Source: Alphaproteobacteria bacterium (GTDB taxonomy: Bacteria; Pseudomonadota; Alphaproteobacteria; UBA6615). From it: DNA of 37,231 bases. Below, piece after piece: positions 32,249 through 37,229 of this stretch. The stretch lies in contig JAPUHN010000333.1 in the NCBI GenBank assembly GCA_027297685.1, positions 1 to 37,231 on the forward strand. The letters are read 5' to 3'. The notes beneath the pieces are model-generated. The model was not told the DNA's origin, did not search any database, and saw only the letters and a list, made by a program, of their open reading frames with translations. Made by a program: the position numbers and the translations under genes. Every line of letters starts with the position of its first letter. Within the stretch, counting starts at the first letter, position 1.

Positions 32249-32920
32249 CTAGCGCGAGCGGGCTATCAGACTAAGATTGCGTTCGCGCTGCCGTTCGGCG
32301 CGCCGCTGCTTGTAGGCGATGATGACCGATTGGCGGTAGACCTCAGCCGACGTTCGTTGTTTTTTGTGCCAAAAGTTCAGGACCCGCTCCCGGTAGGGTT
32401 CGCCGCGGCTGGGGTCGGCCGAGTGATAGCGCCGGACGGCTTCAGACCAGGATTTGTTGTCGCGCTGCAGTTTGCCGAGGAACTGCGCGGCGTAGCGCGC
32501 GTTGATGTTCGGGTCGAACGCCTCTTCCAAATTGGCGAAAGCGTCGGGGTGGTAACGCAAATTCACCTGTAGGCAACCGACGTCGATATTGCGGACGCCC
32601 TTGCGTTGCAGGTCGTGCACAAATGCAATGGCAGTTTTCTTGTCAGCGAAAAAGTTGCCCTTGCCGCCGCTTGTAACGGTCCATGGCCAGGCAATAATTG
32701 CCTGCACTTCGGCGTCCCATCGGCCGGATTCAACGAACGAAATCGCTGTCAGCAGATCTTGCGGCAAGGCGCCACTGGCCTCGGCGTGCTGTATCGCGCG
32801 CTGGCAAATGTGCCGGAATTGCGGGATCGGCAGGGGTGTCGCCGCGCTGGCAACGGAAACCGATAGGTAGGTGGCCAGCGTCACCGCGATTAGGAACCAG
32901 AGCTTTGATGACCTTTGCAT
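32249..32920 (-). CDS. Lytic transglycosylase-like protein, SLT domain
   Basis: A 223-residue secreted protein. A signal peptide is clear (about 1-26, hydrophobic LWFLIAVTLATYLSVSV and cleavage after ASA). The mature part resembles lysozyme-like SLT domains: the putative catalytic Glu64 is in AISFVESGRWD, followed by WPWTVTSGGKGNFF, the NIDVGCLQVNLRYH motif and YAAQFLGKL. These support a peptidoglycan-cleaving role in the periplasm. The C-terminal tail (about 175-223) is strongly basic and helical. It is upstream of and collinear with the Mla operon, 93 bases away, so co-transcription is possible but not shown. Enzyme activity is inferred. Confidence 0.88.
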   Translation of the reverse strand: MQRSSKLWFLIAVTLATYLSVSVASAATPLPIPQFRHICQRAIQHAEASGALPQDLLTAISFVESGRWDAEVQAIIAWPWTVTSGGKGNFFADKKTAIAFVHDLQRKGVRNIDVGCLQVNLRYHPDAFANLEEAFDPNINARYAAQFLGKLQRDNKSWSEAVRRYHSADPSRGEPYRERVLNFWHKKQRTSAEVYRQSVIIAYKQRRAERQRERNLSLIARSR

Positions 32921-33084
32921 GAGTTAAACGGAGCAAATCCCATGCCAAACTGCGCTATTTTTTTGGGTGAACGAAGCGCAACACCATAATTATTGTGCGA
33001 TGCAATATATTCTTGTAATAATATGTCGTCAAAATGGGAAAATATGGCGAAATAATTCTTATTTTCAGACAGTTATGCGAGCCA

Positions 33085-33113
33085 TTGAAAATGCTGCGAG
33101 TGCGAAGTATTTA
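33085..33113 (+). promoter_or_regulatory. Candidate promoter of the small RNA
   Basis: TTGAAA at 33085-33090 matches five of six bases of the -35 consensus. After exactly 17 bases comes TATTTA at 33108-33113, a weak -10. Transcription would start near 33120, exactly where the first hairpin of the candidate RNA begins. The surrounding 32921-33119 is AT-rich and holds no other gene I can support. Confidence 0.4.
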
Positions 33114-33119
33114 TTGCAC

Positions 33120-33204
33120 TGCGGTATCGGCCAATGGCCGAGGCCGCCTATTTAGCGTTTCCTCCCTTTACTTGGGCCGTGGCTTCAACCACGGCCTTTT
33201 TTTT
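33120..33204 (+). ncRNA. Candidate trans-acting small RNA, about 85 nt
   Basis: A stand-alone transcript is predicted because a strong terminator points right although no rightward gene lies upstream. Its parts are a 5' hairpin (GCGG 33121-33124 with CCGC 33144-33147, and TCGGCC 33127-33132 with GGCCGA 33136-33141), a single-stranded linker with CCTCCC at 33161-33166, and the terminator hairpin with eight T. A promoter-like pair ends at 33113. The CCTCCC could pair with ribosome binding sites, as known for several alphaproteobacterial small RNAs. No name can be assigned. The 3' end is antisense to the last codons of phhA. Confidence 0.45.
33175..33204 (+). terminator. Strong Rho-independent terminator (rightward)
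   Basis: A perfect 8-bp stem, GGCCGTGG (33175-33182) with CCACGGCC (33189-33196), encloses a CTTCAA loop and is followed directly by eight T (33197-33204). On the minus strand no T run follows, so it works only for rightward transcripts. The phhA stop codon lies across the loop-stem boundary at 33185-33187. Confidence 0.85.
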
Positions 33205-34057
33205 GCATTTTCGTGGCGCTGCCGCGATCTGTAAAACTGCCACCGACCGATGTGTCGGAGGGCTGAATATCGCCGGGCTCGATTTCCGCCAATCCGGCGA
33301 GCTCACGATAGATCGGCGCGAAGTCGGGCGCCGTTTCGCTCATCAGCTGCTCGAAGCTATCGATCACGAAATAGGTTTCTTGAAAATCGTCGATGCGATA
33401 ACGCGTGCGCAGTATGCGCTTTAGGTCGAACGCGATGCGGTTGGGTTTCCGATCGTCGAGGCAATAGATCGACTCGCCTCTCGACGACAAAATGCCGGCG
33501 CCGTAAATGCGCGGACCATCTGGGGTGTGCAGCAGGCCGAATTCGACCGTGTACCAGTATAGCCGCGCCAGCTTATCGAGGGCGCCCAGGCGCAGGGCCT
33601 TAAGCCCGCCACGGCCATAGGCTTGCAGATAATCGGCAAACGCCGGATTGGTGAGCAGCGGAACGTGGCCATAGACATCGTGAAAAATGTCGGGCTCTTG
33701 CAGGTAGTCCATTTGCTCGGGCGAACGAATCCATCGGGTGGCGACGAACCGGCGTTCGGCCATGTGGCCAAAAAATGCCGCTTCGGAAATCAGACCGGGC
33801 ACGGCGACAACTTGCCAACCCGTCGTTTTTCCAAGCACGTCGTTCAATTTGCGAAAGTCGGGAATACCGTCGGCGCAAACGCCCAATTGATCGAGGCCGG
33901 CGAGATATTCGTCGCATGCGCGGCCGACGAGCAGCCGGGACTGGCGTTCGAACAATTGCCGCCAGGTGGCGTGATCGCGGTCGCAATAGGCCTCCCAGTC
34001 CTGCGCTATCGTGCAATCGTCGGTATTGGTGTCGGGGCTATCTGCTGCCGTGGTCAT
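33185..34057 (-). CDS. phhA: Phenylalanine 4-monooxygenase (PhhA)
   Basis: Non-heme iron, pterin-dependent enzyme converting phenylalanine to tyrosine. The 290-residue bacterial monomeric form is complete, with iron ligands His126 and His131 in DIFHDVYGHVPLL and Glu172 in YWYTVEFGL. VPGLISEAAFFGHMAERRF and LSSRGESIYCL are other family motifs. A GAGGAA ribosome binding site precedes the ATG. The last residues (KMQKKGRG) are encoded by the complement of a rightward terminator and its T run. It is divergent from an AsnC/Lrp regulator, inferred to control it. No pterin dehydratase gene (phhB) is in the window. Confidence 0.96.
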   Translation of the reverse strand: MTTAADSPDTNTDDCTIAQDWEAYCDRDHATWRQLFERQSRLLVGRACDEYLAGLDQLGVCADGIPDFRKLNDVLGKTTGWQVVAVPGLISEAAFFGHMAERRFVATRWIRSPEQMDYLQEPDIFHDVYGHVPLLTNPAFADYLQAYGRGGLKALRLGALDKLARLYWYTVEFGLLHTPDGPRIYGAGILSSRGESIYCLDDRKPNRIAFDLKRILRTRYRIDDFQETYFVIDSFEQLMSETAPDFAPIYRELAGLAEIEPGDIQPSDTSVGGSFTDRGSATKMQKKGRG

Positions 34058-35537: not shown

Positions 35538-36422
35538 CTAAGCGGCGAGCGCTTGCGGCTCTAGGCCCACGAGGCGTTCGGTTAACCGGGACATGTTCGC
35601 GACCACCTCGGTCATTGCGGGAGCACGGCTATAGGTGGCTTCATTCATATAAAGCGCGCGATTGATCTCGATCTGCAAGGCGTGCACGCCCTTGGTTGGC
35701 TTGCCATAGTTGCGGGTGATGAAGCCACCCGAATAGGGAGCGTTGCGAACGACGGTGTAGCCCATCCCGCGCAGGGTTTCCTCGACCATCACGGTGAGGG
35801 CGCGCGAACAGCTGCGCCCATGGGCATCGCCCAGCACGAAATCAACCTGACGCCGGCGCCCGGCGTCGTTATCCATCGGTCCGCCGACCGATGGCATCGA
35901 GTGGCAATCGATCAGAATGCAGTGGTCGAACATGCGCTGGGTGGTCTCGATCAGGTCTTCCAGCGCCGCGTGATAGGGGCGGTAGCACCGGTCGATCCGT
36001 TCGCAGGCTTCGGCATAGTTTAGTTTGCCGGCGTAAATTTCGGCGCCGTTCGCGACCACCCGTGCGATCGTCCCCAGGCCCGCCGCAACCCGCGGAGAGC
36101 GCTTATTAACGAAACCAGGGAGCGGTTGCTCGAACATCGCGGGATCGAGCTCGTAGGGCTCGCGATTGGGGTCGACAAAGGCGCGCGGATATAGGGCTTT
36201 CAGCAACGGTGCGCCGTAAAGCGGTGACTGGCCGAATATCTCGTCAACGAAACTGTCTTCCGAGCGCCGGATCGCTTGTTTGTCCAGCCGCGTCGCCGCA
36301 AGAAACTCTTCCGGGTATTCGCGTCCGCTATGGGGTGACGAAAAAACCACTGGCGCCGTCTGCTGCGCCGGCGCCAGAATCTCGATTGCTTGATCTGCTT
36401 CGATTCGAGTTTCTTGATCCAT
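35538..36422 (-). CDS. N-formylglutamate amidohydrolase family protein
   Basis: A zinc-dependent amidohydrolase of 294 residues (FGase family), which in the histidine pathway releases formate from N-formylglutamate. The motifs are FSSPHSGREYP, YPRAFVDPNREPYELDP, ILIDCHSMPSVGG, FVLGDAHGRSC and the C-terminal YSGGFITRNYGKP...LQIEINRALYMNE. No other hut gene is nearby, so I do not assign hutG; a housekeeping deformylase or related amidase role is equally possible. The frame is open from a GTG at 36449, but the ATG at 36422 is taken because conserved sequence begins after it. It is divergent from the cpdR-like gene, a pairing common in Alphaproteobacteria. Confidence 0.9.
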   Translation of the reverse strand: MDQETRIEADQAIEILAPAQQTAPVVFSSPHSGREYPEEFLAATRLDKQAIRRSEDSFVDEIFGQSPLYGAPLLKALYPRAFVDPNREPYELDPAMFEQPLPGFVNKRSPRVAAGLGTIARVVANGAEIYAGKLNYAEACERIDRCYRPYHAALEDLIETTQRMFDHCILIDCHSMPSVGGPMDNDAGRRRQVDFVLGDAHGRSCSRALTVMVEETLRGMGYTVVRNAPYSGGFITRNYGKPTKGVHALQIEINRALYMNEATYSRAPAMTEVVANMSRLTERLVGLEPQALAA

Positions 36423-36459
36423 GACCCTATTGATTAACCAAAACCACACGCTCTGTCAT

Positions 36460-37154: not shown

Positions 37155-37229
37155 GGGCGCGTAGCTCAGCGGAAGAGCACCTCGGTGACATCGAGGGGGT
37201 CGTAGGTTCAAACCCTACCGCGCCCACCA
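37155..37229 (+). tRNA. tRNA-Val (anticodon GAC)
   Basis: A full cloverleaf: acceptor stem GGGCGCG with CGCGCCC, D stem GCTC with GAGC, anticodon stem CCTCG with CGAGG, seven-base loop GTGACAT with anticodon GAC, and T arm GTAGG-TTCAAAC-CCTAC. The CCA end is encoded. It reads valine codons GUC and GUU. A hairpin (37106-37113 with 37123-37130) lies between cpdR and this gene. Confidence 0.97.

Follow-up and report, generated by a model that had tools for sequence, protein, structure and literature searches.

The alpha-r8 small RNAs have been defined, in a 2025 study of Caulobacter, by a terminator, a single-stranded 10-nucleotide core (UUUCCUCCCU) that follows a weak hairpin, and a location, usually in single copy, beside the gene for N-formylglutamate amidohydrolase (PMC12559287). 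SisA, a C. crescentus member, represses the mRNAs of TonB receptors via this same 10-mer; compensatory mutations, studied in E. coli making Caulobacter Hfq, proved the pairing (PMC12559287). The locus described here, at 33120–33204 (+) of the window (the whole 37,231-nucleotide stretch of DNA that was analysed), is a real gene and a new member of this already known MmgR (alpha-r8) family. The preliminary description had called it ‘undescribed’, a label that has to be withdrawn: the gathering threshold of the Rfam model RF00519 is exceeded and the published features of alpha-r8, MmgR and SisA are present (PMC12559287). The elements of the locus and its surroundings are as follows.

32249–32920, minus strand: LT, a lytic-transglycosylase-like exported protein; conserved upstream neighbour (synteny)
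33085–33113, plus strand: promoter-like element TTGAAA-N17-TATTTA (sequence; similar element in 11 relatives)
33120–33204, plus strand: alpha-r8/MmgR-type small RNA of ~85 nt (Rfam RF00519, fold z-score, synteny)
33121–33147, plus strand: 5′ stem-loop 1, GCGGU A UCGGCC / GGCCGA G GCCGC (fold; helix kept in 12 aligned sequences)
33145–33157, plus strand: what is left of the weak hairpin typical of the family, with 3 pairs, CGC/GCG (pairs flagged as broken in the Rfam alignment)
33158–33167, plus strand: 10-mer pairing core UUUCCUCCCU, anti-Shine-Dalgarno (the alpha-r8 core of PMC12559287; invariant in 12 aligned sequences)
33174–33204, plus strand: intrinsic terminator with a 9-pair stem, 6-base loop and T tract (fold and terminator scan)
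33185–34057, minus strand: phhA, phenylalanine 4-monooxygenase, convergent with the sRNA (gene calls and profile search)
35538–36449, minus strand: N-formylglutamate amidohydrolase, FGase (Pfam FGase, synteny; landmark in PMC12559287)

Reading the locus from left to right, we see a TTGAAA hexamer (33085–33090), a 17-base spacer and TATTTA (33108–33113), with the predicted start of transcription at ~33120. The promoter scan of 32900–33300 did not pick this arrangement up, and by the E. coli consensus the -10 element is weak (three of six matches to TATAAT); a TTG and an AT-rich -10 element are, though, present with similar spacing to the RNA in 11 relatives. Folded as RNA, 33115–33204 forms a 5′ hairpin joined by an unpaired linker to the hairpin of the terminator, at an energy of -37.7 kcal/mol against -25.4 ± 3.0 kcal/mol for 200 dinucleotide shuffles (z = -4.07; better than 200 of 200). 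The exact core UUUCCUCCCU remains unpaired in the minimum-energy fold, and the CCTCCC of the linker (33161–33166) lies within it. The terminator stem occupies 33174–33197, ahead of the T tract, and is the single terminator-like site returned by a scan of 32900–33300; there is no rightward gene in front of it, since LT and phhA are both on the minus strand. The phhA stop codon (33185–33187, minus strand) falls inside the terminator loop, so that the sRNA and phhA, which are convergent, overlap. All the parts originally proposed are thus recovered at their positions, in what is a strong two-hairpin RNA.

Between stem-loop 1 and the core there is a small departure from the family architecture. 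Most other families carry a hairpin of 4–6 pairs immediately ahead of the core (GCCC...GGGC or similar), whereas in the window this has shrunk to three pairs, CGC/GCG; as its 5′ arm is common to stem-loop 1, the two hairpins are mutually exclusive and compete, although another hairpin—stem-loop 1—does precede the core. In the window's clade this reduced and overlapping hairpin is a modest structural variation. Across the 12 aligned sequences the core is invariant (12/12) and the stem-loop 1 helix is kept in all, with exchanges at several pairs; two pairs show two-sided exchanges (one sequence has A-U in place of G-C, and the innermost pair varies between U-G, C-G and G-C), other pairs show one-sided changes, and one pair is mismatched in the window and in its relative G013—conservation being read here from a three-arm alignment made by hand in a script. 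Loss of the hairpin and CCTCCC from relatives that share the locus had been named at the outset as one observation that would count against an RNA gene; both core and hairpin are kept.

The model RF00519 (‘suhB’; ‘Makes More Granules Regulator RNA, mmgR’) gives 33139–33212 (+) a score of 45.1 bits, above its cut-off of 41 (E-value 2.7e-6 for the window), and GCGUUUCCUCCCU in the sRNA is identical to the consensus of the model. This is the one match in the whole 3.84 Mb genome, a search for a second copy across its length having returned none, and matches are present in 37 of 60 related genomes. Three same-strand copies are seen within ~600 bases at one locus from another family of the class (L063; G056:C7:54432-55030).

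The surroundings of the sRNA are likewise those of the family. Between it and the FGase gene lie phhA, an Lrp-type gene and a GNAT gene, and beyond is a CpdR-like response regulator (166 bits against an NCBIfam cut-off of 180); a tRNA gene (37155–37226) is found downstream of the latter. The LT protein has no match in Pfam or NCBIfam, and its name is therefore a reading of the sequence only. After orienting, the order MlaEFD – LT – sRNA – [PhhA] – GNAT – FGase – CpdR-like is found, whole or partial, in 11 same-family relatives: L031–L034, L037, L040, L042 and L043 keep most of it, and L038, L041 and L044, where contigs or genes are shorter, keep part. A partial order (LT, GNAT, FGase, response regulator) extends to other families of the class (L051–L053, L055, L057, L062, L063). 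Such conservation identifies the locus as orthologous by position to the alpha-r8 gene and excludes a chance match. The site between sRNA and GNAT is more variable: phhA is present there in L031, L034, L037, L042 and L063 and absent from L032, L033, L040 and L043, indicating that the sRNA is independent of phhA, a gene that appears to have been repeatedly gained or lost at this point.

Taken together, the RF00519 score, the exact core, the sole copy and the conserved family location make it highly probable that the locus, present in single copy, is orthologous to MmgR of S. meliloti and SisA of C. crescentus and has an anti-Shine-Dalgarno mechanism. The traits that define alpha-r8 and are clearly present are the exact single-stranded 10-mer, the terminator and the single copy near the FGase gene; pointing the other way are the modest extent to which the RF00519 score exceeds its cut-off and the reduced pre-core hairpin. 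The family model, synteny and the conservation of core, terminator and promoter in relatives strongly support the idea of a compact trans-acting RNA of ~85 nt whose linker carries the anti-Shine-Dalgarno sequence CCUCCC.

Candidate targets were sought by pattern searches with Shine-Dalgarno controls, and the counts that follow rest on these pattern sets; duplex energies calculated without intramolecular terms gave uninformative long duplexes and were not used. The genome has 11 copies of AGGGAGGAAA, the perfect complement of the core: one is the opposite strand of the sRNA gene itself, eight are ribosome-binding sites directly ahead of an ATG, and two lie within genes. Because these last two fall within coding sequence, the AGGGAGGAAA sites of the genome contain no perfect-match candidate for a CrfA-like sponge. 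Three of the eight start-proximal sites belong to genes for TctC binding proteins, and the whole genome encodes only eight such proteins. With the pattern AGGGAGGA, 10 of 21 start sites precede Pfam-recognised solute-binding proteins (4 TctC, 4 DctP, 1 TAXI and 1 Peripla_BP_6); among the control Shine-Dalgarno starts the figure is 2 of 25 (AAGGAGGA, 0/7; other GGAGGAAA, 2/18). As the motifs were picked after the first matches had been seen, the p-values attached to these figures—~4e-7 for TctC among AGGGAGGAAA starts (hypergeometric, assuming ~3,700 genes) and 0.003 for AGGGAGGA against the pooled controls (Fisher), which are small sets—serve as guides rather than pre-planned tests. In G013, the closest relative with data, solute-binding proteins account for 5 of 8 AGGGAGGA-type sites (one frame-disturbed near a contig start), and four of the eight lie at genes whose orthologues in the window's genome also carry sites (TctC, 92% identity; DctP, 86% and 79%; acyl-CoA dehydrogenase, 88%); we regard this as a partial replication of the enrichment. 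Most of the other relatives have fewer copies of the full 10-mer complement, at 0–2 sites per genome. Two further observations concern the window's own genome: AGGGAGG stands ahead of the start codon in five of the eight TctC genes (L169–L172, L175), and on contig C89 the genes for the iron-sulfur and FAD-binding subunits of a molybdopterin dehydrogenase (L153, L154) both carry a full AGGGAGGAAA site.

AGGGAGG is itself a good Shine-Dalgarno sequence, and strong translation of solute-binding proteins could thus explain part of the enrichment. Carried further, this leads to an alpha-r8 RNA whose main role lies in the control of carbon storage (PHB), as for S. meliloti MmgR, with the transporter matches reflecting strong Shine-Dalgarno sequences and nothing else. 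MmgR does restrict PHB accumulation in S. meliloti (PMC7143759). Set against this, neither AAGGAGGA nor other GGAGGAAA starts are enriched for solute-binding proteins and sites are found again at the G013 orthologues, and we consider such an explanation unlikely; control of PHB and of transporters are in any case compatible, the one not excluding the other.

Membership of a different anti-Shine-Dalgarno family (AbcR/alpha-r15, SorY, SorX or NfeR1) seems very improbable. There is a sub-threshold likeness to SorY (RF02651; 25.4 bits) and SorX (14.8 bits), and AbcR and NfeR1 likewise target mRNAs of periplasmic binding proteins (PMC8844928); yet the two scores are far under their cut-offs of 111 and 46.6, AbcR/alpha-r15 needs two CU-rich anti-Shine-Dalgarno motifs within 114–121 nt, AbcR and NfeR1 having two or three where the present RNA has one core in ~85 nt, and the gene order is that of alpha-r8. 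The anti-hemB family of Rfam also scored below its cut-off. Equally remote is a structure that acts as a terminator only, for readthrough or for the convergent phhA, with no independent RNA: the phhA stop codon does lie within the hairpin, but only the rightward strand has the T tract, and core, 5′ hairpin and promoter are conserved even where phhA is missing (L032, L033, L043).

Returning to an alpha-r8 RNA that acts on transporters, we propose that transcription would run rightwards from the sigma-70-type promoter (33085–33113) to the terminator at 33204, following a signal that, we infer, switches the sRNA on. Assisted by Hfq, for which the genome has a gene and to which the RNA is predicted to bind, the unpaired core (33158–33167) could then pair with ribosome-binding sites of the AGGGAGGAAA type and would keep mRNAs from being translated, chiefly those that encode the periplasmic solute-binding proteins of tripartite (TctC), TRAP (DctP), TAXI and some ABC systems; such repression would in turn restrain nutrient uptake. 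The sRNA is thus most likely an Hfq-dependent repressor of nutrient-uptake mRNAs, with expression, Hfq binding and repression all predicted. Taken alone, the solute-binding-protein regulon is somewhat better than an even prospect. More tentatively, direct repression of a TctC/DctP/TAXI regulon may be combined with a core whose accessibility is switched by the reduced hairpin overlapping stem-loop 1. Our analysis places a known but little-characterised sRNA family in an uncultured alphaproteobacterial lineage, with synteny supporting vertical inheritance; what it adds is a concrete target prediction, namely the periplasmic binding proteins that serve tripartite and TRAP transporters. If true, this would widen the role proven for SisA, repression of TonB receptors, so that it also covers uptake systems of the inner membrane, and would point to restraint of nutrient uptake as a general function of alpha-r8 RNAs.

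Of the described systems, AbcR1/2 (alpha-r15) and NfeR1 share with the window RNA their anti-Shine-Dalgarno pairing and their binding-protein mRNA targets (predicted in our case), and differ in being longer RNAs with two or three motifs at other loci. MmgR (S. meliloti, alpha-r8; RF00519) has in common a CCUCCCU-containing core, a terminator and a single copy; compared with MmgR, which is regulated by NtrC and AniA, the window RNA differs in that its small pre-core hairpin is cut to three pairs and overlaps a stronger 5′ hairpin. SisA of C. crescentus shares the exact UUUCCUCCCU core, a site near the N-formylglutamate amidohydrolase gene and the presence of Hfq. Unlike SisA, the window RNA has no CrfA-like sponge among the AGGGAGGAAA sites of its genome; it is encoded once, whereas C. 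crescentus has four copies (SisA–D), and its predicted targets are TctC, DctP and TAXI binding proteins where those of SisA are TonB receptors.
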